From a virus: a stretch of 64,000 nucleotides of DNA. The notes below the pieces were generated by a model. That model searched no databases. It was given only the letters and a program-made list of their open reading frames with translations, and had not been told where the DNA came from. Shown in pieces: positions 7,799 through 62,871 of this stretch (the first letter of the stretch is position 1; each line of letters opens with the position of its first letter). The stretch is taken from positions 62,001 to 126,000 of IMG/VR virus record IMGVR_UViG_3300012271_000928. One strand, given 5' to 3'. The position numbers and the translations under genes were made by a program.

Positions 7799-8608
7799 TC
7801 AGACCGACTCGGCCTCGTAGCGGCCGTTGCCCATGTTGCGAATGACGTCTCGGCTGGTCTGGGGTATCTCGACCAGGATCGAACGAACATAGTTGCTGCG
7901 GTTGTACTCATCGTCATAGTAGTAGTCGTCGTCAAACGAGCTACGCGCCTCCTTGTAGACGTCGACACGCACGACATCACCCGCCTCAACCCGACGGAGC
8001 ACCTCTTCAAGGCCACCGCGACGAACCGAAGGTGCGCCCTTGAGCGCATCCCAGCCTCGGAAGGCCTCAGCCGCATGCGTGTAGTCCGCGCCGCGCAGCT
8101 TCTCCTTCTGGAGAACGTAGTACACGAACTTGGCTGCATGACTCGCACCCGCCATGCGTACAGACGCCTCGCGCCAGCCGTCTCGCGTCTTCTCGATCTT
8201 GCCCTTGCTCGTCATGGGTATTTCGACCGTAATGTTCTGCTTGAGATCACCACGCACCATCTCATCCTCATCCTCATCGTACTCACTGAAGTACACGAAC
8301 ACGTCCACCACCGTACCCGGAGAAGCCGAGGTGAGCGCCTCATCCAGGGGCTCAATGTCGGTGATGCCGTTCATAGACGACATGTTACGCTTCCAGGAGT
8401 CCCAGTCCTTGTAGACGATGGCCTCGTGAAGGTACTTCTTGCCCGACGCGCGCTCCTTGCGTAGAGCTTGCCGAACGATCTTGGCTGCGTACGAAGCAGC
8501 AGCGGCAGTACGCGTAGACGCCAGGGAGGCGATCACAGGCTTGAGGTGAGGACGCAGCTCAGGCTTGGTTTTGCCGAGGCGAATGAGACGGGCTTTGAGA
8601 TCAGACAT
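7799..8608 (-). CDS. Protein with shared N-terminal tag (PELRPHLKPVIASL)
   Basis: The start is the ATG at 8608 (MSDLKARLIRLG...), because the first 29 residues match those of other genes in the window; a longer frame upstream is not supported. The tag core is PELRPHLKPVIASL. Behind it two similar modules occur: each has an alpha-helix with AAKxVxxxLRKE(R/K), then a WD(S/A)xK segment, then a beta segment ending ITVEIPMTSKGKIE or ILVEIPQTSRDVIR. So residues about 35-150 and 160-265 form an internal duplication. The second half carries DDDYYYDDEY. Product 269 residues; function unknown. Confidence 0.7.
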   Translation of the reverse strand: MSDLKARLIRLGKTKPELRPHLKPVIASLASTRTAAAASYAAKIVRQALRKERASGKKYLHEAIVYKDWDSWKRNMSSMNGITDIEPLDEALTSASPGTVVDVFVYFSEYDEDEDEMVRGDLKQNITVEIPMTSKGKIEKTRDGWREASVRMAGASHAAKFVYYVLQKEKLRGADYTHAAEAFRGWDALKGAPSVRRGGLEEVLRRVEAGDVVRVDVYKEARSSFDDDYYYDDEYNRSNYVRSILVEIPQTSRDVIRNMGNGRYEAESV

Positions 8609-8673
8609 GGCGTACGTGCTCCGGGATAGAAGAAGGTATACACCTTCCCCCTGTATAGACGAGTTACCGCACA

Positions 8674-8844
8674 TCACCACCGAAAGCGAAGGGTGCCCAT
8701 GAGATACGAATACAGGAGCGGGCTCACGTAACACACCAACGCCAGCCATCGGTCGACCTGGAAGTACGGTGCAAAGCCTACAAACACTACGCCCGATACC
8801 AGCATCAACACGTACACTGCACGTCGGAGATGAGTAAGAGTCAT
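8674..8844 (-). CDS. Small membrane protein, two transmembrane segments
   Basis: The ATG at 8844 follows GGAGAGG. The 56-residue product has two hydrophobic stretches (about residues 10-26, VYVLMLVSGVVFVGFAP; and 33-48, LALVCYVSPLLYSYLM) with a short loop (YFQVDRW) between, and ends RFRW. It is probably an inner-membrane protein. A holin is possible by size, but no lysis genes are seen beside it. Confidence 0.55.
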   Translation of the reverse strand: MTLTHLRRAVYVLMLVSGVVFVGFAPYFQVDRWLALVCYVSPLLYSYLMGTLRFRW

Positions 8845-8869
8845 GAAACCTCTCCAGGTAAAGGTAGAC

Positions 8870-8890
8870 GAAACATCCCCGCTTGCGCGA
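8870..8890 (+). repeat. Solitary degenerate CRISPR-like repeat
   Basis: ACATCCCCGCTTGCGCG (8873-8889) differs in one base from the core of the two CRISPR repeats at 9709-9798. Similarity stops after that core and no second copy is at 61-bp spacing. It lies in the leader of the small membrane-protein gene. It may be a remnant repeat or an unrelated GC-rich palindrome. Confidence 0.35.
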
Positions 8891-8928
8891 AGAGTTGACA
8901 CGGGGCACACGTTTTGCTGTACCACGCC

Positions 8929-9465
8929 TCACCCCGGAGAGTCGCAACCGTCAAGGGGTTTCGATCTTTGCAGGAGACCCAACACCTGCTGCTCCCTCAA
9001 GATCTCCGCTTCCTCGTCCTCTTCGGGAAGCCCACCCTCCAGGATGCCCACCAGCTCGAAGATGCCATGCGGGTCGAACTCGCCCGTACTTGCGTCGAGG
9101 ACCCAGGACCTACCCCCGAGTAGATTCTCAGGGCATGTATGCTCCTCGACGTAGTAACGCATGTCACTGAGGCGCTCTTCAGCGTTCGCGGCGCGCCCGT
9201 AATCCAGGGTCTCGCGTGCGAGGACGAAATGCCCGGCTCGGATAACCTGCGTCAACTGGGACGCCTTGGTGCCCGTGGTAACCTCGACCACCTCCTCCCC
9301 CAGGATCTTCCCGCTCACGCTTACGAGACAGTTATCGCAGTACCAAGGGCCAAATCGACGCACCTGCGTAGAGTCCGCATCAAAGAGGTGGTCGACCGTA
9401 CTCATGTCCTCACCGCAGTCCGGGCAGCACAAGAGCGTGCGAGTGTCTTTTCGTGTGTATGACAC
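8929..9465 (-). CDS. Zinc-ribbon protein, function unknown
   Basis: The preferred start is GTG at 9465, which follows GGAG by 5 nt; the upstream in-frame ATG at 9498 lies in the loop of a terminator-like hairpin and has no ribosome site. The 178-residue product has CCPDCGE near residue 13 and YCDNC near residue 42, a four-cysteine zinc ribbon. The rest is acidic, ending with a charged helix (LPEEDEEAEILREQQVLGLL). Unknown function; the C-terminal gene boundary at 8929 is clear. Confidence 0.6.
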   Translation of the reverse strand: MSYTRKDTRTLLCCPDCGEDMSTVDHLFDADSTQVRRFGPWYCDNCLVSVSGKILGEEVVEVTTGTKASQLTQVIRAGHFVLARETLDYGRAANAEERLSDMRYYVEEHTCPENLLGGRSWVLDASTGEFDPHGIFELVGILEGGLPEEDEEAEILREQQVLGLLQRSKPLDGCDSPG

Positions 9466-9484
9466 AGTGTCTCCGTCATAAAAA

Positions 9485-9507
9485 TACCTCCGTAACATAC
9501 GGAGGTA
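9485..9507 (-). terminator. Hairpin with T-run: terminator or attenuator
   Basis: A perfect 10-bp inverted repeat, TACCTCCGTA (9485-9494) and TACGGAGGTA (9498-9507), with a 3-nt loop. On the minus strand it is followed by TTTTT. It lies between the CRISPR-bearing gap and the zinc-ribbon gene at 8929, so it would stop read-through from the fractured virion gene. Its 3' arm also contains GGAGG, so masking of a ribosome site is an alternative. Confidence 0.55.
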
Positions 9508-12468: not shown

Positions 12469-13632
12469 TCAGAAGTGCTCACGGAGGAAGTTGGAGAACG
12501 TCCACGCGACCTCTTCAAGATCGGACGGAAGGTCCTCCAGCATACGATAATGTGTACGGTCTTCGAGGCCTTCCACGAGGCTCTCAGCCGTGGAAGCGAG
12601 GTCCTCACTCATCTTGACAACCTTGGCCAAAGACGACTTGGAGAGGGCGGAGTAGGCTCCGCGACGGAGAAGGTCGAGCCCTCGCATGAGGTCCTTGACG
12701 CCATCGACATCACGCTCAAGCTTCTTGAGGTCCCGGCCATAAGCCTTCAAGATCCGGACCAAGGTGCCCTCGACGACATCCTCGTACGCGCCCTGAATGC
12801 GGGACTCCTTCTCAGCCTCTACCGATGCCGAGAAGTCGTTCTGCATCAAGGTCTGGATTCGATCGAAGGCGCGCTTGACCTCGGCAGTCTTGGCGACCGC
12901 CTTGAGAGCCTTGGAGGGGTCCGAGAACATGGGGCTGAACTCGCGCGGAGTGCCTCCATCACCGGAACACTCCATGTAGACCTCATAGGAGTACGTGCCC
13001 ATCTTCTCCAGCATCTCCTCGACGAAGAGCGGAGCGGACGCGTCCATGTCAACGACGTCAGCCGGCTTGGGAGTCACAGGCACGAGGTCCAGCTCAGGAG
13101 CAGCCTGATCACGAGGGTTGAGGAGAGCGTCTTCCAGGCCTCGCTGGTTCTGACGCAGGCTCTCAGCGCGATCACGCTGGGCCTGCTGATCCTGCTTCGT
13201 GACGAACGGATGCCCCTTGAGGTAATAATTGTCCCATGCCACCATGTCCGCATTGGCAGGATCGAGAGCCATCTCACGGAGCACGAGCTGCACGCGGTTG
13301 GCGAAATCCTGGAAGGCCTGAAGCGTGCTCCGGCTCACGTCCCCCGTGAACCCCTTGCGGTACTCGTCCGGGAAGTTGTTCTGGAACTCCAGGTCGAGGA
13401 GACCTTCCACAAGCTGCCCACTGAGGCCGGGCCCCATATCCCCACGCACGTCTGCGCTGTACGCCACACGAAGCGCTCCGTACGCGCTAGCGTGCAGCCT
13501 TCGACGCTGGGCCGAACGAGTAAGCACCTCCTGACGAGTCACCGTCAGGGAGGCGATCACCGGCTTGAGGTGTGCACGCAGCTTCGGAGTTGAGCTGCCA
13601 ATGCGAATGAGACGTTGCTTTAGAGTGCGCAT
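12469..13632 (-). CDS. Tagged protein (HLKPVIASL), probably virion-associated
   Basis: A 387-residue mainly helical protein. Residues 1-29 are the shared N-terminal tag in variant form (LIRIGSSTPKLRAHLKPVIASL). The rest is unrelated to the other tagged proteins: a helical region with HPFVTKQDQQAQRDRAESL, a short beta part (MGTYSYEVYMECSGDGG) and a long helical C-terminus with coiled-coil character (LKKLERDVDGVKDLMRGLDLL). No enzyme motif is seen. It lies immediately upstream of the split virion gene. Confidence 0.65.
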   Translation of the reverse strand: MRTLKQRLIRIGSSTPKLRAHLKPVIASLTVTRQEVLTRSAQRRRLHASAYGALRVAYSADVRGDMGPGLSGQLVEGLLDLEFQNNFPDEYRKGFTGDVSRSTLQAFQDFANRVQLVLREMALDPANADMVAWDNYYLKGHPFVTKQDQQAQRDRAESLRQNQRGLEDALLNPRDQAAPELDLVPVTPKPADVVDMDASAPLFVEEMLEKMGTYSYEVYMECSGDGGTPREFSPMFSDPSKALKAVAKTAEVKRAFDRIQTLMQNDFSASVEAEKESRIQGAYEDVVEGTLVRILKAYGRDLKKLERDVDGVKDLMRGLDLLRRGAYSALSKSSLAKVVKMSEDLASTAESLVEGLEDRTHYRMLEDLPSDLEEVAWTFSNFLREHF

Positions 13633-13902: not shown

Positions 13903-14364
13903 TCAGATGTAGCGTACGGTCAACTTGGAGCCCACGTACTGACGCACGATGGCCTGAATCTCCTCATCGGACACGACCCCAGACACGGGAGCGAATGCGA
14001 AGGACTCGTCCAGGAACACCTTACCATTGTAGGCCGACACCACCCCGGAGTGTATATCATCAGGAGAGACCCTACGCCCGGAAGCACGAGACAACGCCGT
14101 CAAGATGTTGGCCGCCACGCCTCGCAGCTCCCGGCCACGCACGTTCACGAGCTGGTAATCCACCTCCGCGCCAAAGTCATGACGTATGAGCAATGAGACG
14201 CTATAGCCCCCATCACGTGCCGACAGACTACGAGAGAGCGTCAGGGCCGCCGTCGTCGATCCCTGAGCCTGCTTATGCAGGGAGGCGATCACAGGTTTGA
14301 GGTCCGCACGAAGTTCAGGCTTGGCGGTCCCCATACGAATCAGTTCGGCTTTGAGATCGGACAT
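13903..14364 (-). CDS. Tagged protein (PELRADLKPVIASL), unknown function
   Basis: The ATG at 14364 is preferred over 14496 because the product then begins with the shared tag (MSDLKAELIRMGTAKPELRA...) and has GAGGG 8 nt upstream. The 153-residue product has the tag (1-29), a Thr/Ala/Ser linker, then a compact alpha/beta domain (YSVSLLIRHDFGAEVDYQLV, GVAANILTALSRASG, DEEIQAIVRQYVGSKLTVRYI). The leader from 14365 to 14505 contains a small GGTCC/GGACC hairpin and no gene. Confidence 0.7.
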   Translation of the reverse strand: MSDLKAELIRMGTAKPELRADLKPVIASLHKQAQGSTTAALTLSRSLSARDGGYSVSLLIRHDFGAEVDYQLVNVRGRELRGVAANILTALSRASGRRVSPDDIHSGVVSAYNGKVFLDESFAFAPVSGVVSDEEIQAIVRQYVGSKLTVRYI

Positions 14365-22521: not shown

Positions 22522-22830
22522 TCAGATCGACGTGAGGACGCTCTTGAGGCCTCGCATCTCACTGCTCAAGTTGGCGTACTCCTCATTGAGTGAGCGAATG
22601 CCCTGGTCACGGGCACGATCCGTCGTCGCACGTGCGATCGTGACCTGAGCACGGTAGATCGCACTGGCGATGTCCTTGAGTGCGTCAGGGATCAACTCCA
22701 GGCGCTCCATAGGGTCGCCGTAAGCGATACGCGTATCAGACGCCAGAGAGGCGATCACGGGCTTAAGATGGGGGCGCAGCTCCGGCTTGGCGTTGCCGAG
22801 ACGGATAAGACGGGCTTTGAGATCAGACAT
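22522..22830 (-). CDS. Tagged protein (PELRPHLKPVIASL), small helical
   Basis: A 102-residue product after GGAG. Residues 1-30 (MSDLKARLIRLGNAKPELRP...) are almost identical to the start of the gene at 7799-8608, also at DNA level. The remaining 70 residues are helical (LIPDALKDIASAIYRAQVTI, then RARDQGIRSLNEEYANLSSE), with coiled-coil character. It lies between the capsid-gene terminator and the plus-strand gene, whose end it nearly touches. Confidence 0.7.
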   Translation of the reverse strand: MSDLKARLIRLGNAKPELRPHLKPVIASLASDTRIAYGDPMERLELIPDALKDIASAIYRAQVTIARATTDRARDQGIRSLNEEYANLSSEMRGLKSVLTSI

Positions 22831-22946: not shown

Positions 22947-23825
22947 TCAGCGGCGCACGACCAGACGGACAAGTCCGCGCGGGTTGTGGCAGCCAATGCC
23001 CAGGTTCTCGAAGATCGAGAAGCCGATCTGGCGGGCAGCGGGGTTATCCGCCGAGAGAACCGTCAGCTCAGTGCGAACGGGGATGCGGCCGAACATCTCG
23101 GGCTCGGTGCAGAGGTACACGAAGCCAGCCGGGACGAGACGCGAGACGATGATCTGCGCGCCCCAGAGGGTGGACTGGAGACCCGTGTTCAGAAGGACAG
23201 CCTGCGACTCGATGTCGAGGATCTCGCGACCGAACTTACGGATGTCCGAGTAGTCCTTGGCGTTCATGTAGATGCGCGCCACGCGAAGGTCATGCTTCTC
23301 GATCTCGGAGAACGCGTCCGCGAGGACGGCCTGCGAGATGGGAGCCACGACCTGGAGGTCGGGGTTGACCGTACCGGGAACCGAATCGAACCCGTTCTGA
23401 GCCACAGCGTCGAGGATAGCGAAGACGCGCTCGTCCTCGGCAGCCTGGATCTGGCTCTTACCGAGCTGCTGGGCACGCTCGATGAGGTCGAAGCGGCGCT
23501 CCTTGATCTGCGTGATCGGGATGGTCGGAAGCGACGCGATCTCGAACAGGGGGATGATCACACGACGAGGCTTCTGGACAGCCTGGATGTTCTCACCCTC
23601 CTCGCCTACGACGTACGCGGTGACATCCGGGTCCTTGTCGTAGATGGGAAGTGCGCCGTCGGGAAGCTGCTCGACGAGGAAGGTCTTTCGACCGACCGAC
23701 GAGTAGTCGCGACGAAGGCGGAGGGGCTGAATCATCGAGTTGGCGAGACGCGCGCGTCCTGCCGCAGTCTTGATGAATCGGCCGATGAGCTGCGACTTGG
23801 CAGCGGGGCTGAGCTGGTTGGACAT
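22947..23825 (-). CDS. Major capsid protein (HK97 fold)
   Basis: A 292-residue protein. The ATG at 23825 has GGAG 10-12 nt upstream; an ATG at 23861 is less likely. The segments DYSSVGRKTFLVEQLPDG, YDKDPDVTAYVVGEEGENI, IPLFEIASLPTIPITQIKER and RFDLIERAQQLGKSQIQAAE, followed by an AKDYSDIRKFG segment and LVPAGFVYLCTEPEMFGRIP, are the pattern of HK97-fold major head proteins of several large phage groups. Upstream genes are a decoration-like, an acidic scaffold-like and a protease-like gene, the usual head-module order. The N-terminal QLIGRFIKTAAGRARLANSM is faintly like the shared tag of other proteins. Confidence 0.88.
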   Translation of the reverse strand: MSNQLSPAAKSQLIGRFIKTAAGRARLANSMIQPLRLRRDYSSVGRKTFLVEQLPDGALPIYDKDPDVTAYVVGEEGENIQAVQKPRRVIIPLFEIASLPTIPITQIKERRFDLIERAQQLGKSQIQAAEDERVFAILDAVAQNGFDSVPGTVNPDLQVVAPISQAVLADAFSEIEKHDLRVARIYMNAKDYSDIRKFGREILDIESQAVLLNTGLQSTLWGAQIIVSRLVPAGFVYLCTEPEMFGRIPVRTELTVLSADNPAARQIGFSIFENLGIGCHNPRGLVRLVVRR

Positions 23826-23884
23826 TTTTTTATGTCTCCTGTTTGGCGTTTCAGTGGGCAATCGGGCCCTGAACCTGCGAAGGC

Positions 23885-24633: not shown

Positions 24634-26052
<1,419 letters not shown>

Positions 26053-26211: not shown

Positions 26212-27735
26212 TCAATTAAGAAAACGAGAGTGGGACAGAGCAGCGGCAGCCTCTGGTCGAGTCGGAACCCTTCCGTGCTGCTTGGTGAAGGTCTTGAGGT
26301 ACTCCATATTGGAGCCGTATCGGCAAATACCACCAACCTTGATGAGCGTGGCGTAGAAGTCCATCGGAAGCATCTCACGATCCGAGCCTTCACGATCAGC
26401 AAGGATCAGGGCCCCCACGATGTCCGTGTTGGCGAAGCGAGGCTTGAGGGTCTCGTAGTGCTCGGGCTTGTCCATCGTATAGAGCAGCGCGAAGATTCGG
26501 CGGCGACGGTTGATGTCCGACAGCTCTCGTGCGTAGCGACGAGAGAAGATCGCATACGCCGTACGCGCGATCGAGGAGTGCTGGATGGAGTCGTTAGGAG
26601 CCATCTCCCCCTCAGGCATGTCCTTGGTCTCGGGAGCGTCGCGAAGGTCATCACGCAGTTCGCGCATGGCCTTGTCTTTGACCTTCTCCTTGAACTGCTC
26701 TACCGCCTCGTCGACCGGGTTCTTGGGAGCCTCTTCCTCCTCACCGCCTTCCTCATCCTCATCGAAGCCGAACGCCAGCTTGAGCTGCGAGTTGACCTCC
26801 TCCCTGGCAATACGTGCCGAGAGAGCTGCGGTCTTGCGGAACATGTCCGTCCACTCCGCCTGGATACCAGCAGGAACCGTATAAGCGTGCTGAATGCGAG
26901 CCTCAAGGTCCGTGGTCTCATACCGAGAAGGAGTATGCGTCGTAGGACCTCCGGGAAGCACCGACCTCAACACGGCGCCCTTGAACGCGGGATTGCCCAC
27001 CCACGAGCCCTCGATGAAGCTCACCGAGTCTGGATCAGTGTGGTGACCACAAAGCTCCGCCACGACGTGAATCGCTCCATCGGGACCGACGAACTTGTTG
27101 CCCTTCTCATACTTGACGTGACGACACAGCTCCGCGTCATCCTTGGCGCGGTTGCCGCACTTGGTGCACGTCGAATAGGCGATGGTGCAGCCCATGGACA
27201 GCGTGTTCAGCTCACCGCTCTCAATGCGTGCGATGAGATCGCGGTGCTTGCGGTCCGTCGCCACCAGGATGTCTACGTAAACCGTATCACCCAGATCACG
27301 CGCCACTGCGTCAATGATCTTGCCCTTGGACAGCTCCGGGATCTGGATATGCTCGACGTAGTTCTCGGCTCCCACGAACGTCTGATACGTCGCCATGAGG
27401 AGCTTACGCTCCCAGGCGTCGCCGTTGGCGTTGATGTACTTGGAGCACCCAGGAGTGATCAGATAGTCCGAGTACGGACGGTTGATGCTCTCACCATCAT
27501 CGTTCTGGACGCTGGCTCCCGTCTTGACGTTAGGAGCCTCATCCACGTCTACCGATGCGATGATCGTGCAGTGCGTCAGGAGGTACTTGTCGGGGCTAAA
27601 CTTGCCCAGAAGGTCCGACGCCGTACGGCTGCGATGCGCGCCCGCAGTCACAGCGTTGGCACGCGTCACGTTCCACTGGTCCACGCCAATGATTGGATGC
27701 TGTACCACAGCGTTTGCAATACGAATCATGGCCAT
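26212..27735 (-). CDS. Probable prohead maturation protease with zinc-binding insert
   Basis: A 507-residue protein. The N-terminal 290 residues have the layout of prohead proteases of large phages: LTHCTIIASVDVD, later SDYLITPGCSKYIN, VDILVATDRKHRDLIARIES and GELNTLSMGC. A Cys/His cluster follows (CTKCGNRAKDDAELCRHV, later AELCGHH), probably a zinc site. Candidate catalytic residues are His at 55 and Ser at the GELNTLSMG segment, but this is not certain. The C-terminal part has an acidic linker (DEDEEGGEEEEAP) and helices. Position in front of the scaffold-like and capsid genes agrees. Confidence 0.55.
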   Translation of the reverse strand: MAMIRIANAVVQHPIIGVDQWNVTRANAVTAGAHRSRTASDLLGKFSPDKYLLTHCTIIASVDVDEAPNVKTGASVQNDDGESINRPYSDYLITPGCSKYINANGDAWERKLLMATYQTFVGAENYVEHIQIPELSKGKIIDAVARDLGDTVYVDILVATDRKHRDLIARIESGELNTLSMGCTIAYSTCTKCGNRAKDDAELCRHVKYEKGNKFVGPDGAIHVVAELCGHHTDPDSVSFIEGSWVGNPAFKGAVLRSVLPGGPTTHTPSRYETTDLEARIQHAYTVPAGIQAEWTDMFRKTAALSARIAREEVNSQLKLAFGFDEDEEGGEEEEAPKNPVDEAVEQFKEKVKDKAMRELRDDLRDAPETKDMPEGEMAPNDSIQHSSIARTAYAIFSRRYARELSDINRRRRIFALLYTMDKPEHYETLKPRFANTDIVGALILADREGSDREMLPMDFYATLIKVGGICRYGSNMEYLKTFTKQHGRVPTRPEAAAALSHSRFLN

Positions 27736-27738
27736 GGG

Positions 27739-28032
27739 TCACTCCGGGGGGGCTACGTGCGTTAGCAGGGGAAGAAGATGGGGACGAAGTTCAGGACGCT
27801 CAAACGCCAACTCTACGAGATCCTCGAAGAGCGTAGACGGAGCCTCCGTACGGCTCGGCGCCTGACTCAACAGATTCAACAGCCTCAACCCCGCACCATG
27901 CTGAGCAGAAGAAGGAGAGCCCATGGACGCCTGGAGGCCACGGCCAAAGTAGGCACGCACCGCGTCCGCGAGGGCCCCATCCTGTCCACCCCGTTCCCGG
28001 AGAGCCTCCATGATCGCGTCTTGACTGGTCAT
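27739..28032 (-). CDS. Small protein with C-terminal copy of the tag-like motif
   Basis: The ATG at 28032 overlaps the TGA of the upstream gene (ATGA). The 97-residue product starts MTSQDAIMEALRERGGQDG and ends FEDLVELAFERPELRPHLLP plus 10 residues; PELRPHLLPLL is the tag core seen at the N-terminus of other proteins, here at the C-terminus. Function unknown. Confidence 0.6.
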   Translation of the reverse strand: MTSQDAIMEALRERGGQDGALADAVRAYFGRGLQASMGSPSSAQHGAGLRLLNLLSQAPSRTEAPSTLFEDLVELAFERPELRPHLLPLLTHVAPPE

Positions 28033-28442
28033 CGTACGTGATCCGAAAGCTTCTGGTTGATGCGCCCGAACAGGTCGTCGAGAGACTCGTGCTGTCCGGT
28101 CTCCCATTTGTGGAACTGAGCATCCTGGAAGCTCGTACCCACGTGAAGCATGGTCTCGATGTCGTAGCCGTCGCCTTTGTGAACGATGTCAAACTTGACC
28201 CGCCACTGGATTTGGGAGAGCTGCCCCTCCAGGTAACCCGGCTCACGCTTGGTGATCGAAGTCGAGTAGGTACAAGACGTGGCGAAAGCCTCCGTCAGCT
28301 CCGCCAGAAAGTGATTGCGCACGAAGTCGAAGATGGACACGTCCAACGTCGACAACCCCGCTCGTTTGAGCACAGGACCCAACGCGTCCCGGAGACCGGG
28401 GCGCGCCAAGGCGAGTCCAATGAGTTGTTCATGCAGCGCCAT
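28029..28442 (-). CDS. Protein with divergent N-terminal tag
   Basis: A 137-residue protein. The first 28 residues (LHEQLIGLALARPGLRDALG, then PVLKRAG) are a divergent form of the tag. The remainder is an alpha/beta domain (about 38-125) with VRNHFLAELTEAFATSCTYS, WRVKFDIVHKGDGYDIETML and a C-terminal helix. Function unknown. Confidence 0.6.
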   Translation of the reverse strand: MALHEQLIGLALARPGLRDALGPVLKRAGLSTLDVSIFDFVRNHFLAELTEAFATSCTYSTSITKREPGYLEGQLSQIQWRVKFDIVHKGDGYDIETMLHVGTSFQDAQFHKWETGQHESLDDLFGRINQKLSDHVR

Positions 28443-29752: not shown

Positions 29753-31852
29753 TCAAGTCGTGATACGCTTTAGGATCGTCAACAGGCGATCGTAGGTGGG
29801 CGCGTCGATCATGCCTGCGTAGCGGTAGCCGCTGGCAGTCAGGATACCGAGGTCCAGGGCTGTGCCATAGAGAGAGTCCTCAGAAGCTCCCGGCATATCC
29901 CGCACAAACGAGAGGCGATCCGTCTCCAGCCAAACCTTGGCCTCCGACAGGATCTCCGCGTAATCCTCGTTGAGCAGCGACATCGAACCCGACGGGAGCG
30001 TCCAGTTCGGAGACGGCGGCCTCTCCGAAACCGGCAAGCGACCGGGAAGGCCTCTGTACTGAGCCACGCGGTTGCGTCGAGAGAGTGCACGGGTGAAGCC
30101 GTCGGAGAAGGCCTGAGCTGTTTTGTTTGACTTCATGAGGTCCTCCAAGAGAGACGTAAAGAACGCAGCAAACGACGAGTCTACCGCCTCGGGGGTCTTG
30201 GTACTCTCCTGATCCTTCTTGCGGCGCGTCAAGTAGACCTTGACCTGCACCGGATCAAATACACGCGCTCGGCCCGGCTCCTCCGGAGAGAGGCGGAGCT
30301 GCTCAAAGTAACCCTTGGTCAAGAAGTCCGCTGTCAGCTCGTCCATAAGACGCTGCTTGAACGCGGGCTCCAGGATAGCCGTCGCAGCCTGAGTGTTCGG
30401 ACCGATATCGAGAGCCATACGGTAACCGGGTTCGTCCTTGACAAGCTCCACAAGGTCTTTATCGGATAGCTTGCGGATCTTCTCCACGAAATCAGATACC
30501 TGAGCCTCATCCGTAAAGTCGACCTCGGAGGGTTTCAGCCCATCTCCGCTCGCAGCCTCCAGACGAGACAGCACACGCCCATAGGTCGTCGTCTCATCCG
30601 GAGCCTTCTTGCGCGACAAGGATACAAGGGGCTCCTTCAGCTCCGTGTAATACTTCTGCGCGGAGGAGCCCTTCTCCGAGTCCTTGATGAGCGCATCAAG
30701 CTGGGCCACACCTGCGTCCACATCCTTCTGAGAGGAGAAGAGGGCCGCCTGATACAGCTTGGGGCTATCGTAGTTGAGCTGGCGAACCAAGCCACGATCA
30801 CTCAACGCGTTCAAGGCCTTCTTGTCGGGCAAGAGAGACTCAAGCGTGTTCTCCTCTCCCAGAGACGGGAGGTTACGCAGGCGAGCGCGCGCGCCCTCGA
30901 AGACTGACTTCACCTGCTCGTAGTACATGCGCTGGACAGGGTTGTTCTCGAACCCGGCCTGCGTCAGCTTCTCGGAGACGTCCTGGAGCGCTGAATCGTG
31001 ATCGTACACGTCCCAGTTGCTCGCATGGTCTTCCAGGACCTTCTTTGTGTCCGCGTCCAGCTCCCCACGAAACCCCTCAGGCATCTCGTCCATACCCTTG
31101 GGGTAGGAGGCCTTCTGCTCCATCATCACGCGCTGTGCAGCCTGAGCCTGCACCGAGTCCGGGTCATCCGAGACGCCCACATCATACAGGTCATCATAGG
31201 ACGCACCTGAATCACGAAAGGCCTGCGCCTGTGTATCAATGAGCACCTGCCGCTGCTCTCCACGGGAGTCGTCGATATTATCTGGGACCACCTCCTCGCC
31301 AGAGACCTCCGGAACGTTGTCACGCATCTCGTTTAGAAGCTCTCGCTCCATGTCCGTGATCGCGTCATCGTCCTCCCCCTCTTCTCCTGCGTCACCGGAC
31401 GCAGCCTCCGCGCTCTCTTCACCGGCATCAGCCTCCTCCGGCTCTTCACGGATCTTGAGCTGGCGAGGGTTCTTGGGCTTCTCCGCCTCACCCTCGGAGT
31501 CCTTTGCAGACTCATCCTCCTCGGAGCCGCCCTCCTCCGAGTCTTTGACCACGTGATCCTTACGGTCCGCACCTGGATGAGCCTCCTGATACGTGTCCCA
31601 GGCCTCCTCGGTGGCGAACTCAGCCCCCATGAACAGACGTGAGACACGCTGGGCGAGAGTCTCCCCACCAATGTCTTTGTAGTTGAGCGAGAGGTCCCTG
31701 TCCTTGCCGTCCGTGTCCTTGTCCTTGGGCTGGATGCGGCCGCGCTCCTTGTCCCGGCGAGGAGGCTTGTTCTTGGGAGAGGGACGCACCAAGCGCTCCG
31801 CCTCCTCTTGCTCGCGCTCCGCGTCGCTCTTCGTGGCTTTACGGTGTGTCAT
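29753..31852 (-). CDS. Large acidic virion-associated protein
   Basis: The ATG at 31852 overlaps the end of the portal gene by 14 nt and has GAGGA upstream. The 699-residue product has a basic N-terminus, a segment ATEEAWDTYQEAHPGADRKD, then a long acidic low-complexity region (about 105-200; GEEGEDDDAITDME), and a helical C-terminal 450 residues. The TEEA...HPxAD segment recalls one I know from many uncultured-phage proteins, from memory only. Placement right after portal suggests a head-associated or internal protein. No enzyme motif is recognised. Confidence 0.6.
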   Translation of the reverse strand: MTHRKATKSDAEREQEEAERLVRPSPKNKPPRRDKERGRIQPKDKDTDGKDRDLSLNYKDIGGETLAQRVSRLFMGAEFATEEAWDTYQEAHPGADRKDHVVKDSEEGGSEEDESAKDSEGEAEKPKNPRQLKIREEPEEADAGEESAEAASGDAGEEGEDDDAITDMERELLNEMRDNVPEVSGEEVVPDNIDDSRGEQRQVLIDTQAQAFRDSGASYDDLYDVGVSDDPDSVQAQAAQRVMMEQKASYPKGMDEMPEGFRGELDADTKKVLEDHASNWDVYDHDSALQDVSEKLTQAGFENNPVQRMYYEQVKSVFEGARARLRNLPSLGEENTLESLLPDKKALNALSDRGLVRQLNYDSPKLYQAALFSSQKDVDAGVAQLDALIKDSEKGSSAQKYYTELKEPLVSLSRKKAPDETTTYGRVLSRLEAASGDGLKPSEVDFTDEAQVSDFVEKIRKLSDKDLVELVKDEPGYRMALDIGPNTQAATAILEPAFKQRLMDELTADFLTKGYFEQLRLSPEEPGRARVFDPVQVKVYLTRRKKDQESTKTPEAVDSSFAAFFTSLLEDLMKSNKTAQAFSDGFTRALSRRNRVAQYRGLPGRLPVSERPPSPNWTLPSGSMSLLNEDYAEILSEAKVWLETDRLSFVRDMPGASEDSLYGTALDLGILTASGYRYAGMIDAPTYDRLLTILKRITT

Positions 31853-33791
31853 CGGTCTTGTCCTCGCGTTGCGTGTGAGATGCACTCATCATACGGCGCA
31901 CCTGTTCCCCAAGCTGGGGATTCGACTGCAAGGCTCCTGTAATGTACGACGCCAGATCCTGGACGCTCGACGGGATAACCCCCGGCGACGGCTGCGAACC
32001 CTGTACCGACCCGAAGCGCGAGTTGGTGTCCTTGGGAGGGCTGTAGGACAGCTTGAGGTAGTCCGCAGTACGCTCCAGGAGATCGGTCTGCTCCGGAAGC
32101 GCGCGACCAACCTCCGAGTAGGAGGACCTCAGGATCTCGTTGAAGAGCGAGTCGTTCATCGTCAAGAAGTCCTGACGCAGACGCTCCTCGACAGCCTGAG
32201 GGTCCAGGTTGAACAGCTCCAGGATGTACCCCACGCTCAAGCTGCCCTTCTGATACAGGTTGAACATCGCATCGAACGTGTCCCTGTTGTCTCGAAGGGC
32301 CAGACGCGTAAAGCTCAGCTCGGGGTAGAGCACCACCAAGTTGCCAAACTCGTCCACCTCCGTGTAGCCCTTCTTGATGGCCACGGGACGGAACAGGTTC
32401 TCCTCCACGTACTGCTGGATACGCTCGCGATAGAGCATGTAGCGCGTGTTGATCACCTCGATGTTGATACGCTCGCCCGAGTAGCTCGACTCACCCGTGA
32501 GCATCGACTGAGTGACACCCAGACCGGCAAAGAGCTGACGATCCGTAATGTCGTACTCACCCGCCAAGTCCAGGAGCCTGTCTCGGGCCGAGATCTCCTC
32601 CCAGGTGACCTGGAAGTTGGTGATCAGCGAGTAATCCGGGTCCATGAGCAGGAGGTCAACCTGCTCGCGCAGATCCTCCACGTCCGCCAGGGACATGTCC
32701 TCCGCATACACGAGCCTCTTGGGCGTCATGGCCCTGGACGCAATGGAGGTCTGAGCTTGACGCAGCTTGTCTCGGTACACCAGGGTGCGCATCACCGACT
32801 GAAGAATCGACTCGCCGTGATCCTTACCCGCTTGACGGTTGCGCGACAAGTGGTATACAAAGGAGCCCTTCTCCGGGTCTGTACCCAGGGGGAGGTTCAT
32901 ATCCTGAGAGATGTACTCAATGATCTGCTCCGGGACATCCTCCAGCGCCTCAATAGCGGACTCGTCCCCTGCCATGGCAGCCTTGACCAGACCTTGAGTG
33001 GCGCCGTCAGGGATCAGCTCGACCTTGTACTTGTGTGAAAAGGAGTACGTCTCCAGAGAGACCTGATCGGGCGGGAGGATGATCACCCGGTCCCAACCTC
33101 GATAGTGAGCCTGCCGGTACGTCGCGATGGCCTCTTCAGCATCGGACCGACGAACCACGCGCATGGACGTCTCCCCCGTCTCCGTGTCCAGATGGTTGAG
33201 GGTCTCGGTGAAGACGTACTCCGGAACCTCAGGCTCGGTGTCCTCCGCGAACAGGAAGGCCTCCCCGATCACGTAGAACTCTCGGGTCGCATCCACGAGG
33301 ACGTTGAGGAGGTCTATCTTCTTGACCATCTCCTCGTAGAACCTCAGGATCTCGCGATTCTTCTTGGCGTCCGTGCCCTTGGGCATGGTCAAACGCAGCT
33401 TGGAGAGCGGCAGCTCCGTGTGGAGGATCACCGCCTGCTGGACGTAGGGATCGTTGTTGTAGAAGAAGCGGTAGTACGACCGCATCTCAGCAAGGTTTTG
33501 CGGAAGCTCCAGGAAGTCCGTAGAGAGCTGCGGGGAGTACACGTTGGTGGCGCTGCCCATCGTCACGCCCGCGCCCCCACCAAAGCCGCCGCCGCCGCCG
33601 CCGCCGCCGCCACCGAAGCCATAACCGTATGAGCCCGATCCCCCGATGTAGTTGGCTGTGCGGTTCAGACGCGACGCAATCCGAGAAGAAGGACGCACCT
33701 CGGCCAGACCCTGCGACGCGATCACCTTGCGGACGTGGGACACCGAAGAGACAATCTCGGCCTGCTCATTCTGTTCACGCAACGTAGCCAT
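31839..33791 (-). CDS. Portal protein
   Basis: A 650-residue protein after GGAGAG. The segment MRSYYRFFYNNDPYVQQAVI followed by a helical clip/stem region, LLNVLVDATREFYVIGEAFL, DRVIILPPDQVSLETYSF and, later, LGVTQSMLTGESSYSG with ERINIEVINTRYMLYRERIQ, has the order of portal proteins of large tailed phages. It forms the dodecameric head vertex through which DNA passes. Residues about 58-75 are a Gly run encoded by GCC repeats on the plus strand, a likely flexible linker or slippage-prone tract. It is encoded one small operon step after the large terminase. Confidence 0.85.
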   Translation of the reverse strand: MATLREQNEQAEIVSSVSHVRKVIASQGLAEVRPSSRIASRLNRTANYIGGSGSYGYGFGGGGGGGGGGFGGGAGVTMGSATNVYSPQLSTDFLELPQNLAEMRSYYRFFYNNDPYVQQAVILHTELPLSKLRLTMPKGTDAKKNREILRFYEEMVKKIDLLNVLVDATREFYVIGEAFLFAEDTEPEVPEYVFTETLNHLDTETGETSMRVVRRSDAEEAIATYRQAHYRGWDRVIILPPDQVSLETYSFSHKYKVELIPDGATQGLVKAAMAGDESAIEALEDVPEQIIEYISQDMNLPLGTDPEKGSFVYHLSRNRQAGKDHGESILQSVMRTLVYRDKLRQAQTSIASRAMTPKRLVYAEDMSLADVEDLREQVDLLLMDPDYSLITNFQVTWEEISARDRLLDLAGEYDITDRQLFAGLGVTQSMLTGESSYSGERINIEVINTRYMLYRERIQQYVEENLFRPVAIKKGYTEVDEFGNLVVLYPELSFTRLALRDNRDTFDAMFNLYQKGSLSVGYILELFNLDPQAVEERLRQDFLTMNDSLFNEILRSSYSEVGRALPEQTDLLERTADYLKLSYSPPKDTNSRFGSVQGSQPSPGVIPSSVQDLASYITGALQSNPQLGEQVRRMMSASHTQREDKTDDTP

Positions 33792-34413: not shown

Positions 34414-36399
34414 TCATCTCCTGCGTCGGTTCCAGCGCTCGATCTGCTTCAAGCGACCTCCCCGCTGATCGGTGTAGTTGTTGTGCCGACTCTTTCGACG
34501 CTGATAGGAAGCCACCGACGTGGGACCCGAGGGCCGGTCATCCGAACCTCCCCGCGCGCCGCGACCCGCGATGGCCGTCTGTTTCCCCGTAGCCATGGCG
34601 CTGAGCCAGACCGAGCGAACCAGAGCATCCGAAAAGTCATCGTGCTTCCCATCGGTTTGGGGAGCCTCTACCTCGATGATCTTCTTGGACTTGCGCGTCG
34701 CCCGAAGCTCCAACAGCTCCGTGATGTAGGGAGCATTCTTGGCATCTCCGGCGTCGAGGACCGAGGAAGCGGTGTCGTTGTCGTCCTCCGTGTTCACGTC
34801 ACGCATCATGTAGTCGTACAGCTCAAGTTTACCATGATACATCAGGGCCTTGAATGCGTCGAACATCTGGGACGTGTGATCCTTGGTGAACTGCTTGGAC
34901 TTGATCTGCTCCAGCCCCATCTTGTCCAGGGTCTGCTGGAAGCTCAGACCCTGCCACTGGTCGAACAGGCCTTCTCGGACGTAAAACTTGCGCGAGACCT
35001 CCTTGACCCAGGCGGCCATCTCATCGAAGTCGAGCATGTCCACGTGGACGATCTCCCGCGCGTACGGGACCATCGGAGCCTGCAAGTGGGGGTTGAGGTC
35101 GTACCAGTCATGACCTGCCTGCCACTCCTCGTGGTAGATGAGGCGGATACCATCAGCTTCGGGACGGGTGAGCACGAGCGACGTACGGTCCGAGACCACA
35201 GCGAGGTCGAGCCCCATGTAGTGCGCCTGACGCGCGCGGCCACGAATCTCAGGCTTGAGGTCCTTGAGCACGCACACCATGAGGTCTCGCTTACGCTCGA
35301 TCCACGAGCTAACACGGTCCGTGAACTCCGCACCAAACTCCGTCGCAAAGACCGTCGGATCGTTGGCCTGGAAGTCCTCCAGGAAGGAGATGGGGACCTG
35401 CGGGTTGACCTCCCACGTCGGCGCCTGAATCATGAGGAGATCGCGAGCAGGTGGACCACCAGCCTTGGACTGCGAATACGAGTTGTAGAAGAGACCCGAC
35501 TTCGCAGAAGGCGAAGAGATCATGATCACACGGCCCTCAGAATGCGACGTGAGGTTCGTCTGAGACTGATTGGGGTCCGAGGGCCCGAACGTAGCTACCG
35601 AGGGCGTGACGGCGCTGTAAACGGACTGAGCAGACGACCCGCCCTTGTCCTTGAAGAAGGCGACCTCATCCAGAATGACGACGATGTTGGCGTAACCACG
35701 GATACCTGAGCTGGACGAGGAGAAGAACCTGATCTGACAGCTCGCCCGGCCATCATCACGCGCCGAACCCGTCTCCTCGATGTCGTGAGGAGTCTGGAAC
35801 CTCATGAACGACTGCGTGTCGTGTGACAGAAAGGGCGTGAAGAAGTCACAGTTGACGAAGTGGTTGCGAATAGCGTTGTAGAGGATCTGAGACTGATCCT
35901 TGGTCGGAGCGACCGTGGACAGGGTGATCTCAGCACCCTCAGCCATCCCGTAGTACCGCTGCGGGTCAAACTTGCGCAGGAGCCGGTAGATCTCGTAAGC
36001 CCCGATGATCGACGAGATGAAGGACTTGCCAGAACGTCGACCAATAGGGAGGATCAGTCGGTGCCGCTCGTGATCTGGCTCCCGGATGTTGCATCGGCCC
36101 TCATTGAAGAGGTAGCCCATGTACTCGGCTTCGGTGAAGTTGTGGAAATGCTCCGCCTTGGCCGAGTCTCCATCGCGCCAGTTCTTGGGGATGCGAATCG
36201 TACGCTCGGAGCTGTTCAGCTCCAGGTTGTAATAGCACTTGAGGATGAACTGCTGCACCGGGAACAAGCGGATACGCTCACTAGGACCCATGTTCAACCC
36301 AAACGGGCTCTCCACGAACTCCTGGATGTTCATGGCCGAAGGGGTTTCGTCGGCCGTACTACGGCGTCCGGCTCGGCTAAATAGGGTTGAAAGATCCAT
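34414..36399 (-). CDS. terL: Large terminase subunit
   Basis: A 661-residue packaging motor and headful/cos nuclease. ATPase domain: Walker A GRRSGKS (120-126), Walker B VVILDE (240-245) and coupling SSPSAKSG (295-302). The nuclease (RNase H-like) domain starts YMGLDLAVVSDRTSL with D398, and has a late acidic cluster DDFSDAL (about 599-605). It assembles on the portal at 31839-33791 and pumps DNA into proheads. The C-terminal tail is Arg-rich (RLKQIERWNRRRR). No intein or frame break is seen. Confidence 0.92.
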   Translation of the reverse strand: MDLSTLFSRAGRRSTADETPSAMNIQEFVESPFGLNMGPSERIRLFPVQQFILKCYYNLELNSSERTIRIPKNWRDGDSAKAEHFHNFTEAEYMGYLFNEGRCNIREPDHERHRLILPIGRRSGKSFISSIIGAYEIYRLLRKFDPQRYYGMAEGAEITLSTVAPTKDQSQILYNAIRNHFVNCDFFTPFLSHDTQSFMRFQTPHDIEETGSARDDGRASCQIRFFSSSSSGIRGYANIVVILDEVAFFKDKGGSSAQSVYSAVTPSVATFGPSDPNQSQTNLTSHSEGRVIMISSPSAKSGLFYNSYSQSKAGGPPARDLLMIQAPTWEVNPQVPISFLEDFQANDPTVFATEFGAEFTDRVSSWIERKRDLMVCVLKDLKPEIRGRARQAHYMGLDLAVVSDRTSLVLTRPEADGIRLIYHEEWQAGHDWYDLNPHLQAPMVPYAREIVHVDMLDFDEMAAWVKEVSRKFYVREGLFDQWQGLSFQQTLDKMGLEQIKSKQFTKDHTSQMFDAFKALMYHGKLELYDYMMRDVNTEDDNDTASSVLDAGDAKNAPYITELLELRATRKSKKIIEVEAPQTDGKHDDFSDALVRSVWLSAMATGKQTAIAGRGARGGSDDRPSGPTSVASYQRRKSRHNNYTDQRGGRLKQIERWNRRRR

Positions 36400-37005: not shown

Positions 37006-37329
37006 TCAGCGCAACGACGCCGCGACGCGCTTGAGAAGAGTCGCCTCTTCCTTGCGACCCAGGACCGAGAACATGACGCCCATCGCGTAGGTCATGAGGT
37101 AGGCCTGACGACGCATCTCATCCGAATCCTGCTTGGTGACCGCGACAACAAACTTCGAGCCGCCCGCCTTGAGCTGGCTGCCCAACTCGCGAATCTTGCC
37201 CATCGCATTGGCCTTCTTATCGGTCACCATATCCTCGCCCGAAGCGAGATGTGCGATCACGGGCTTGAGGTCCGCGCGAAGCTCGGGATGAGCGTTGCCG
37301 AGGTCGATGAGTGCTTGCTTGGTGTTCAT
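37006..37329 (-). CDS. Tagged protein (PELRADLKPVIAHL) with C-terminal RVAASL
   Basis: A 107-residue product after GGAG. Residues 1-28 (TKQALIDLGNAHPELRADLK then PVIAHL) are the tag in variant form. The body is helical with LGSQLKAGGSKFVVAVTK and AYLMTYAMGVMFSVLG. It ends TLLKRVAASLR, a form of the second recurrent motif, so this one protein has both. Function unknown. Confidence 0.65.
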   Translation of the reverse strand: MNTKQALIDLGNAHPELRADLKPVIAHLASGEDMVTDKKANAMGKIRELGSQLKAGGSKFVVAVTKQDSDEMRRQAYLMTYAMGVMFSVLGRKEEATLLKRVAASLR

Positions 37330-45931: not shown

Positions 45932-46022
45932 GTGTCTCTCTCCATCGTAATAGTTCGTAACAGACCTTCACGGCCTTCGGATCACAGTAGACCAATCGAG
46001 CCCACGACGTCAAGCGTAATGC

Positions 46023-58123: not shown

Positions 58124-58732
58124 TCAAGCGTCTTTGTCCTTAATGTCCTTAAAAGCCACATCCTTGAACGTGCGAGCCACTTCGAGCAGCTCCTTGATCG
58201 GCATGCCGACACGGCGAACGGGCATCCTCATGTCCGGGTCCAGGACGACGCAAGCCGCCCATCGGTGGTGACCGTCCATAATGTAGTGGTCCGAAGACAC
58301 GATCACGGGAACCTTGGTCAGGAACGCATCGTCACCGCTGCGGGCGCTGGACACCATCCCCTCTACCTTTTTCGAGCTGATCTCACGCTGAGTCGCGCGG
58401 AGATCCCCTACCGGGAGGCGACCCGACCGGACAACCACTCCCCGGTCACGAAGCATGGCGACGAACACGGGCACACGGCGGGCGTCTATCTGGGGCATCT
58501 CCGAACGGGGAATCCCCAGATGAGCGCGGCAGTGGCCAGTCTCCTCGCACCAGTCTTCCGACGCCGCCATCAAGACGCGCTGCAAGGCTACTGCGCTGGT
58601 CCGAACACCCTGGACGGACAGATTGGCGTGCGTCACCTCGGTAGGAACCACCGAGGCAATACGAGCGATGTGAGATGTCAGCTCAGGGCGCTGAAGGGCA
58701 AGGTTCACGAGCTGCTCGTACAAGGTAGGCAT
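58124..58732 (-). CDS. ParB/sulfiredoxin-fold protein with divergent N-terminal tag
   Basis: The ATG at 58732 gives a 202-residue product starting MPTLYEQLVNLALQRPELTS, a divergent form of the tag. About residues 70-85 read EETGHCRAHLGIPRSEMPQI. From about 140 it has VPVIVSSDHYIMDGHHRWAA, the Srx/ParB nuclease-like core (D-G-H-H-R-W), which binds nucleotide or DNA. The exact activity is unknown; ParB-like phage proteins include nucleases and methylation-linked enzymes. Confidence 0.65.
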   Translation of the reverse strand: MPTLYEQLVNLALQRPELTSHIARIASVVPTEVTHANLSVQGVRTSAVALQRVLMAASEDWCEETGHCRAHLGIPRSEMPQIDARRVPVFVAMLRDRGVVVRSGRLPVGDLRATQREISSKKVEGMVSSARSGDDAFLTKVPVIVSSDHYIMDGHHRWAACVVLDPDMRMPVRRVGMPIKELLEVARTFKDVAFKDIKDKDA

Positions 58733-60952: not shown

Positions 60953-60992
60953 GTGTAGTCCTTGATTCGTATATCAGTCGTAAGGTCGAGCG

Positions 60993-61610: not shown

Positions 61611-61612
61611 GC

Positions 61613-61650
61613 GACCTCCTGTGGGGCGTGATCTTACCACAGAGGAGGTC
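61613..61650 (-). promoter_or_regulatory. Hairpin that can mask the ribosome-binding site
   Basis: GACCTCC (61613-61619) pairs with GGAGGTC (61644-61650), continued by TGTGG (61620-61624) with CCACA (61637-61641) after a 2-nt bulge. On the minus-strand mRNA the low-coordinate arm contains AGGAGGTC, the ribosome site for the ATG at 61610. Translation may be gated by a protein or by translation from upstream. Confidence 0.45.
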
Positions 61651-61663
61651 ACCGGTCCAGGCA

Positions 61664-62026
61664 CTAAGCCCTCAAGTAGATGTAATCCGGGTCAAGATAG
61701 AAGACCTTGATCTCCTGGACGGCATCAAGCAGCTCCTCCTCGTGATGTGTCAGCCGACCCAAGAGCCCCTCCTCACGAAGATGGCCCGCGTCATAGTCAC
61801 TGGCGACGGTCTGGAGAGCCAGGAGAGGAGTCAGGACACGCGCGCGCGCTTTGGAGAGCGCTGCGTCGGAGAGGTCCAGGGGACCAAACATCTTCGTCAA
61901 GAGAGACATGGCGTTGTCCAGGAGCATCCCGAAGTGCCGACCATCTGCGTCAGACCTTCCTCTCAAGACGTCTTGAGCGCGGCGGTGCGCTTGAGCGACC
62001 AGGGCATCGAAAGCTGGGAGACTCAT
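61664..62026 (-). CDS. Unknown small helical protein
   Basis: A 120-residue protein overlapping the stop of the gene before it (ATGA). It is mainly helical (MSLPAFDALVAQAHRRAQDV; LLALQTVASDYDAGHLREEG), with a HHEEE segment near residue 93. No family is recognised. Confidence 0.6.
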   Translation of the reverse strand: MSLPAFDALVAQAHRRAQDVLRGRSDADGRHFGMLLDNAMSLLTKMFGPLDLSDAALSKARARVLTPLLALQTVASDYDAGHLREEGLLGRLTHHEEELLDAVQEIKVFYLDPDYIYLRA

Positions 62027-62226
62027 TCCGAACCTTTCGTGTGCGTGGGGATGAGCGAGGACGCGTCCAGGAGGTCCACACAGGTCAACCGAACCTCTCG
62101 GTTCTTGAAGCGGTCCAGCAGCGTCTCCAGGGGGACGAGCCGGCCATCCTGCTCCACGTACCAGTGTCCCTTGGCATTCTTACGCAGAACACCCTCTTCC
62201 AGGAACGAAATCTCCAACAGGTTCAC
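62023..62226 (-). CDS. Unknown small protein
   Basis: A 67-residue product with a GTG start at 62226 after GAGGAG. It is probably a small alpha/beta protein (KGHWYVEQDGRLVPLETLLD). It is translationally coupled to 61664-62026. Confidence 0.55.
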   Translation of the reverse strand: MNLLEISFLEEGVLRKNAKGHWYVEQDGRLVPLETLLDRFKNREVRLTCVDLLDASSLIPTHTKGSE

Positions 62227-62229
62227 AGC

Positions 62230-62439
62230 CTACTCCTCTTGTTGGGCTTGGCGCCTCTCCACCACACGCTTGTAGTGCGCGCACTCACGAGAGTCCGGAG
62301 CACGCCTACACTCGGACTTGTGCTGGATATGATACCACGCATCACACGACGCCGCATGACGATGTGGACACCGGCGCGCATAAGAAGGCGTCGTACACGA
62401 GAAGGCCGCGAGAGCTATGACGGGTATCAGAAACCTCAT
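62230..62439 (-). CDS. Small secreted Cys/His-rich protein
   Basis: A 69-residue product. MRFLIPVIALAAFSCTTPSYA is a signal peptide with a likely SPase I site after SYA; the FSC pattern is not a good lipobox. The mature part is basic with Cys and His (RCPHRHAASCDAWYHIQHKS). It may act in the periplasm or on the cell surface; a small spanin-like role is only a guess. Confidence 0.55.
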   Translation of the reverse strand: MRFLIPVIALAAFSCTTPSYARRCPHRHAASCDAWYHIQHKSECRRAPDSRECAHYKRVVERRQAQQEE

Positions 62440-62871
62440 TCAGACCCTTTCGCGGTTCCGCTCAATGGTCTTGGCGAGATCCAGCGCGAGGTGACCGGCG
62501 CGGGGGAACGGCACGCTTAGGATCTTGTCATAGAAGTTCCCCATGACGACCGTGCCCAGAAGCATACCCTTCTCCTCCTCGAAAGTGACCTCGCAGCGTA
62601 GCGAACGTGGCGAACCGCTACTAAACTCCAGGCGAATCACACAGTAATCAGGTCGCACCTCAATCTTGGGCCGGCTCAACATGCCCTTCACGTTGAGCGC
62701 ATTGAGTAGAATACTCGGAAGCTCCGCATAGAGCGCCTCAAGAGCCTTCTCCCAGGGACGGTCGAGTTTCCCCGAAGTCTTGGAGAGGCTGGCAATCACA
62801 GGCTTCAAGTGCGGACGAAGCTCGGGGTTAGATGTACCAAGGCGAATGAGCTGCGTGGCGATGTCAGACAT
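62440..62871 (-). CDS. Tagged protein (PELRPHLKPVIASL), unknown function
   Basis: The ATG at 62871 has GGAG 8 nt upstream and gives a 143-residue product starting MSDIATQLIRLGTSNPELRP, the shared tag. The rest is a small alpha/beta domain (ALEALYAELPSILLNALNVK, IEVRPDYCVIRLEFSS, CEVTFEEEKGMLLGTVVMG) with a C-terminal helix. It is the only clear tagged protein in the replication half of the window. Confidence 0.7.
   Translation of the reverse strand: MSDIATQLIRLGTSNPELRPHLKPVIASLSKTSGKLDRPWEKALEALYAELPSILLNALNVKGMLSRPKIEVRPDYCVIRLEFSSGSPRSLRCEVTFEEEKGMLLGTVVMGNFYDKILSVPFPRAGHLALDLAKTIERNRERV

Follow-up and report, generated by a model that had tools for sequence, protein, structure and literature searches.

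Why should proteins that are otherwise unrelated begin with the same short peptide? The question is raised by a 64,000-nucleotide stretch of viral DNA, referred to here as the window, which spans positions 62001-126000 of the 127,707-bp IMG/VR record IMGVR_UViG_3300012271_000928 (labelled G000; further G and L labels denote other contigs). A first-pass annotation of the window had pointed to a peptide, here called the tag, at the start of the genes at 7799, 12469, 13903, 22522, 37006 and 62440, and had read it as a signal for sorting, docking or processing and not as an active domain. We think it probable that the tag is a capsid-targeting (cargo-loading) signal, which loads accessory effectors into the phage head for delivery into the bacterium.

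The tag in the window and in other large phages

We built a profile from the six reported starts and ran it on the six-frame translation of the whole record. All six tags were recovered, with hidden Markov model (HMM) E values between 5e-18 and 3e-21, and two gene starts were corrected: gene 13903 has its tagged start at the ATG at 14364, instead of the GTG at 14496, and gene 7799 has its own at 8608. The tags of the window are listed here, with protein lengths in amino acids (aa).

8522..8608, minus strand: N-terminal tag MSDLKARLIRLGKTKPELRPHLKPVIASL of gene 7799-8608 (269 aa, unknown body), HMM E 8e-20
13546..13632, minus strand: N-terminal tag MRTLKQRLIRIGSSTPKLRAHLKPVIASL of gene 12469-13632 (387 aa), HMM E 1e-18
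14278..14364, minus strand: N-terminal tag MSDLKAELIRMGTAKPELRADLKPVIASL of gene 13903-14364 (153 aa), HMM E 5e-20
22744..22830, minus strand: N-terminal tag MSDLKARLIRLGNAKPELRPHLKPVIASL of gene 22522-22830 (102 aa), next after the major capsid gene, HMM E 3e-21
37246..37329, minus strand: N-terminal tag MNTKQALIDLGNAHPELRADLKPVIAHL of gene 37006-37329 (107 aa), HMM E 5e-18
62785..62871, minus strand: N-terminal tag MSDIATQLIRLGTSNPELRPHLKPVIASL of gene 62440-62871 (143 aa), HMM E 8e-20
27757..27843, minus strand: C-terminal tag STLFEDLVELAFERPELRPHLLPLLTHVA of gene 27739-28032 (97 aa), E 7e-11 with the wide profile
28356..28442, minus strand: degenerate N-terminal tag MALHEQLIGLALARPGLRDALGPVLKRAG of gene 28029-28442, in the interval between portal and head protease, E 2e-3 with the wide profile
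58646..58732, minus strand: possible degenerate N-terminal tag MPTLYEQLVNLALQRPELTSHIARIASVV of gene 58124-58732, E 0.8, not significant alone

The weaker forms that had also been reported, at 27739, 28029 and 58124, fared unequally. The C-terminal copy of 27739 is a tag of the full 'LLPLL' type. The degenerate tag of 28029 can be taken as real because the orthologue of this gene in the sister phage G010 (35451) bears a clearer in-frame upstream tag, MSLRDSIIRLAYRSPSRRSRLLPLVKLA. The start of 58124 is still weak; its body is ParB-like (phrog_2859, the only PHROGs match among the window carriers) and is homologous to domains that stand behind tags in G006 and G007. One further C-terminal tag lies beyond the window, at G000 7727-7810 (E 4e-16).

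The wider scan that the first-pass annotation had proposed took the family well beyond G000. A first search of the collection with the window's own tag subtype found nothing, and the family was opened by a sister subtype, LxxLxxLAxxxPELRxxLLPLL, which is that of the outlying (7727-7810) and C-terminal (27739) copies. The wide searches, based on an alignment of 45 tags (A2), gave 209 matches in 30 records, 80 in 10 further records, and 26 in three of 26 records selected by their capsid protein. This amounts to about 300 copies in about 43 large-phage contigs, an upper figure since some records overlap and near-duplicates are included (G029 and G031 are nearly the same phage), with up to 25 copies per contig; the contigs are incomplete, so the counts per phage are lower bounds. 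The only GenBank phage that bears the tag is an uncultured 485-kb genome with 11 copies, while many IMG/VR contigs bear it; a tblastn search with the tag through 50,697 phage records gave LR745208 as its sole match. The plasmids searched yielded no tag, nor did 84,980 bacterial and archaeal genomes examined with a strict codon pattern, which AT-rich forms could escape. A bacterial or plasmid origin was rejected because neither search gave a copy.

The profile consensus is LRSKLIRLAHxxPELRPHLLPLLK, within a tag of about 28 residues. Across 170 non-redundant copies it reads L-R-[SA]-[KR]-[LV]-I-R-L-A-[HY]-x-[NK]-P-E-L-R-P-[HDQ]-L-L-P-L-L-K; Arg17 is invariant, and Pro14 and Pro22 are present in 93% and 96% of copies. 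The position of the tag varies: 134 of these copies are N-terminal, 27 internal and 9 C-terminal.

Fold, position and conservation of the tag

We examined AlphaFold2 models of two unrelated carriers, in both of which the tag forms a helix-Pro-helix hairpin (per-residue confidence, pLDDT, of 80-96) that is followed by a stretch of lower confidence. In the 22522 protein the helices span residues 3-14 and 16-33 around Pro16, with pLDDT of 85-96, and a low-confidence linker follows. Confidence in the body was high for this protein and poor for the second, a DUF2958 protein, of whose model only the tag part was used. The tag is therefore predicted to fold as an independent hairpin, and the models do not bear out the concern that it might be an integral part of different folds.

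When the tags were masked, homologous bodies recurred with the tag at other positions. A Dps-like body carries the tag at its N-terminus in G010 and internally in G014 and lacks it in G000 (window 20798-21628), and no tag was found with this body in G000 or G005 at the six-frame level. The 20798-21628 protein resembles Dps and ferritin in its second half. Similarly, a DUF2958 body has the tag at its start in L038, and in L187 the tag precedes the same body within a longer protein. Genes were called with a simple codon-usage script that placed some starts wrongly, and the absence of a tag was trusted only where the six-frame translation agreed. As the untagged calls for G017 2448, G014 6074 and probably G007 12274 and G021 39462 could be start errors, the argument from presence and absence rests on the Dps-like body only.

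The domain behind an internal tag is mostly one that also occurs elsewhere as a tagged protein of its own, and adjacent tagged genes are commoner than chance (15 pairs versus 5). Both observations suggest that internal tags arose by gene fusion within tagged operons. This bears on another explanation of the proteins with two or three tags, namely that tagged proteins build the prohead core, their hairpins associating with each other or binding the scaffold and the multiply tagged proteins serving as cross-links, so that they would be scaffold and not cargo. Two small proteins tagged at both ends, G007 26542 (115 aa) and G021 12182 (133 aa), and the charged multi-tag proteins G007 28271 and G006 10685 would suit such a role. 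Most carriers, on the other hand, consist of one tag and an enzyme-like or folded body, the internal tags are explained by fusion of neighbouring tagged genes, and the final domain of G007 28271 recurs elsewhere as a tagged protein on its own; we regard a core-building function as improbable.

It had also been noted that the DNA of the shared part stays similar and then stops abruptly. The edge is indeed sharp, as the 60 nucleotides directly past the tag are only 22-38% identical, but the similarity at the DNA level is limited. Across 15 pairs, positions with the same residue used the identical codon in 143 of 288 cases, versus 117 expected from codon usage alone, and a clearly closer codon match was seen in only a few G000 pairs (15/19, 15/22). 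Because the peptide persists over synonymous sites that are near saturation, it is the tag peptide that selection maintains, and its conservation is not mainly due to recent copying. Recent duplication of a gene start was rejected on the near-random state of the synonymous sites. The tag could also be a mobile start cassette, a 5' segment that spread by recombination and aids translation or solubility with no partner of its own, as the prevalence of the N-terminal position and the few G000 pairs with more codons in common than expected would allow. Such a cassette is hard to reconcile with the internal and C-terminal copies, with a peptide conserved over near-saturated synonymous sites, and with an arginine (Arg17) that never varies in 170 copies, and we consider it very improbable. 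The modular position, independent hairpin, shuffling among bodies and selection on the peptide together give good support to the initial view that the tag is a signal and not a domain with an activity.

Tagged proteins and the proposed route into the head

In order to evaluate what the tag is attached to, we scanned about 160 carriers for known domains. These included ART-PolyVal, LPD1, ParBc_2, RelA_SpoT, S-adenosylmethionine (S-AdoMet) lyase, RNA ligase, DUF2958, DUF5710, DUF7007 and WGR domains, as well as pentapeptide and beta-solenoid repeats. In the genomes studied, no recognised capsid, portal, terminase, polymerase, protease, clamp-loader, recombinase (UvsX) or helicase gene is tagged. 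Among 1,015 called genes of eight genomes, tags were rarer on conserved genes, meaning those with homologues in at least three other genomes, than on the remainder (5/203 versus 66/812, p=0.003). This depletion indicates that the tagged proteins are accessory; where recognisable, they look like host-directed effectors.

Several of these domains recall the polyvalent proteins of phages, for which ART, ParB-like and LPD1 are among the domain types named and which are predicted to be packaged and injected (Iyer et al. 2017, PMC5512222). The resemblance covers some carriers only, namely those with ART-PolyVal, LPD or ParB-like domains. Polyvalent proteins join several disparate domains in one polypeptide; a few carriers do so (G007 28271, G006 10685, G014 55732, G017 21887), and most are single-domain and short (median 215 aa). 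No shared short tag is mentioned in the excerpts of that paper that were consulted.

The head genes of the window are the following.

22947..23861, minus strand: major capsid protein, untagged, phrog_2522 E 2e-50
24634..26052: scaffold candidate
26212..27735, minus strand: head maturation protease, untagged, phrog_18299 E 4e-14
31839..33791, minus strand: portal protein, untagged, phrog_16240 E 1e-27
34414..36399, minus strand: terminase large subunit (TerL), untagged, phrog_2 E 1.5e-27

Four of the G000 tags, those of 37006, 28029, 27739 and 22522, lie inside or at the border of this operon, which runs from the small terminase (TerS) through TerL, portal and protease to the major capsid protein. 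Gene 37006-37329 is immediately upstream of the TerS candidate (36424-36975), and gene 27739-28032 holds the same position relative to the head protease gene. The portal-protease interval of G010 contains three tagged genes, the 28029 orthologue included; in T4, this is where the genes of the core proteins gp67 and gp68 are found. A head protease gene is present in G000, G005, G007, G010, G014 and G021.

We infer that the tag, as a small amphipathic helix-Pro-helix hairpin that is mostly N-terminal and joined to the body by a linker, would be bound by a component of the prohead core, scaffold or shell; accessory effector proteins would thereby be enclosed in the head and later ejected into the cell with the DNA. 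Among the destinations that the first-pass annotation had offered, the prohead is favoured by the domain types of the carriers, the location of several tags in the head operon, and the precedents in phages P1 and T4. The accompanying suggestion of cleavage by the maturation protease found no support: within nine positions behind the tag no motif is conserved among about 160 copies, and removal of the tag is therefore not demanded by the sequence. The tag has in common with known capsid-targeting signals that it is a short terminal peptide on unrelated proteins, separable from the body, and that its carriers are accessory and effector-like; a sequence motif like that at which the prohead protease removes signals of the T4 type was not found.

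In T4, internal proteins carry a capsid targeting sequence (CTS) of 10-20 residues (PMC5694885). Like the tag, the CTS is a short N-terminal peptide common to unrelated proteins (the internal proteins and Alt), and its carriers are head proteins that T4 can do without and that enter the cell together with the DNA. The CTS is cut by gp21, whereas the tag has about 28 residues, two helices and no conserved cleavage motif, occurs also at C-termini and internally, and has many more carriers per genome; no sequence relation to the CTS is claimed. In P1, 30 N-terminal residues of DarB are enough to bring a reporter into the capsid (PMC9024508). This signal resembles the tag in its length and in not being defined by cleavage, and its cargo is a polyvalent antirestriction protein; the Dar proteins have no common consensus, whereas the tag is one family with up to 25 copies per genome in dozens of phages. 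The N-termini of gp53 and gp54 of phage SPN3US are also common to both although their bodies have diverged (PMC5694885). Unlike the tag, the propeptides of the SPN3US and phiKZ ejection proteins exceed 100 residues, are cut at defined motifs and belong to a different giant-phage lineage.

Outside phages, unrelated cargo is loaded into a protein shell by the encapsulation peptides of bacterial microcompartments and the cargo-loading peptides of encapsulins, short amphipathic helices with linkers that are found at either terminus or between domains. These serve other shells and are not known to be related to the tag in sequence. The earlier statement that no system of this form had been described needs qualification, as terminal capsid signals are a known kind (T4, P1), while the tag family itself is absent from the literature searched. 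No paper was found with the tag motif strings, in a search outside which most subscription papers fell. New here are the tag family, its copy number, its N-terminal, C-terminal and internal use, and its spread over large phages; membership in a T4 or P1 family is not claimed.

Several observations weigh against a role in packaging. No carrier is known from a virion, and no receptor for the tag was identified; the lack of a conserved cleavage motif counts on the same side. The head operon of G000 shows a mild excess of tags, with about 12% of the genome containing 4 of the 10 (binomial P of about 0.02, computed by hand), and apart from the four G000 genes and three G010 genes named above, the carriers lie at a distance from late virion genes, many of them far from the head operon. 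In its capsid lineage G000 belongs with Bacillus phage G and Tunturiibacter phage Tunturi_5, and both of these isolated relatives lack the tag; no tag-bearing isolate was present in the collections searched. Finally, 23 of 26 contigs selected by a capsid protein 77-80% identical to that of G000 have no tag, which suggests that the partner of the tag varies or is something other than the capsid protein. On this count, the capsid protein was judged unlikely to be the only partner.

Part of this evidence would suit a docking helix that binds a phage-encoded partner in the infected cell, such as a hub, a polymerase or a membrane complex, and gathers effectors there with no packaging involved. The modularity of the tag and its bias toward accessory genes fit such docking equally well, and the many tagged genes outside the head operon speak for it. 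We consider docking unlikely, given that the domains of the carriers match those of injected polyvalent proteins, that several tags do lie in the head operon, that the known analogues are capsid signals, and that no hub was found.

Two further destinations were weighed against the capsid. Some large phages build a nucleus-like shell (PMC7824862), and the carriers of the tag are large phages, so that the tag might direct proteins to a phage nucleus or other replication compartment, as the first-pass annotation had suggested. This was not borne out: phiKZ chimallin has no relative in 15 tag-bearing records (in a search where the query recovers itself and which distant homologues could escape), no recognised replication protein is tagged, and we find this destination highly improbable. 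The tag might instead be a degradation signal for a protease such as the Lon that G000 encodes, terminal degrons being common in bacteria. The presence of Lon in only 2 of 30 tag-bearing records largely refutes this, internal tags are hard to square with a terminal degron, and the proposal is barely credible. Lon belongs to a group of genes beyond the window (G000 29900-30484 and nearby) that also includes GroEL/GroES-type chaperonins, gyrase B and a large protein with EGF/cadherin-like domains.

If the tag is a packaging signal, the sequence would reveal which of their many unknown proteins large uncultivated phages bring along in the virion and inject; even for giant phages in culture this set is difficult to establish. 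The tag would also mark out dozens of small proteins of unknown function as candidates for anti-defence effectors and would provide a new loading peptide that tolerates either terminus. Whatever the destination, a 28-residue hairpin that selection keeps on over 100 unrelated proteins seems not to have been described before.

Other start motifs and neighbouring genes

A second module of about 30 residues, EF.TEEA..YL..HPGAD...H.V, occurs in one gene of the window.

31538..31627, minus strand: accessory module 2 (GAEFATEEAWDTYQEAHPGADRKDHVVKDS) in gene 29753-31852, in the portal-protease interval, HMM E 6.5e-16

Module 2 was found in this gene and in 16 other proteins, most of which are also tagged, and was not found in GenBank phages. 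It stands behind the hairpin tag and behind a second start motif, T2 ([A/R]RVAxRYL), alike. T2 was present within the first 35 residues of 20 proteins versus 5.6 expected (P 2e-5), with sites in the window at 4032-4328, 18192-18758 and 41192-41461 and others in G005, G006, G007, G010, G014, G017 and G055. In G055, which lacks the hairpin tag, T2 is the largest shared N-terminus, and module 2 comes after it. The portal-protease interval of G007 encodes a relative of the tagged L038 and L189 proteins in which EARVAHRY replaces the tag, with module 2 behind it.

A third start, T3 (LTxSDRSALIRLASTLPVGSxxRRAILAGL), was seen in four open reading frames (ORFs) of L189, two ORFs of L033 and at G017 29622-30395, on different ORFs within one contig, and may represent a diverged hairpin tag. 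Module 2 stands behind T2 as it does behind the hairpin (T1). It is conceivable, and we propose it tentatively, that T1, T2 and T3 form an address code for the injected payload of large phages of this lineage, in which the classes can take each other's place on homologous bodies. Were this so, the packaged effector set of each phage could be read from its tags in the sequence alone. The capsid-related G062, which lacks the hairpin tag, has a start of its own, MTYDFRxRxAG, common to 36338, 37136, 168925 and 173608.

Some head genes of these phages are unusually long. In G014 (63947-83168), the protease has 919 aa with an insert that reads like an intein and the portal has 1,004 aa, and TerL of G005 (83362-86559) and G014 has about 1,070-1,100 aa. 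Pieces 31-40% identical to the major capsid protein occur as separate ORFs in G026 (44498-45993), G033 (26876-27106) and, at several places, G029/G031, where a full-length capsid copy stands beside the capsid-like short pieces. An intein with LAGLIDADG lies within a polyA-polymerase domain at G007 89007-92888. In the window, 789-1937 encodes a protein that strongly matches the actin-like protein volactin (Pfam PF25216, E 3e-78).

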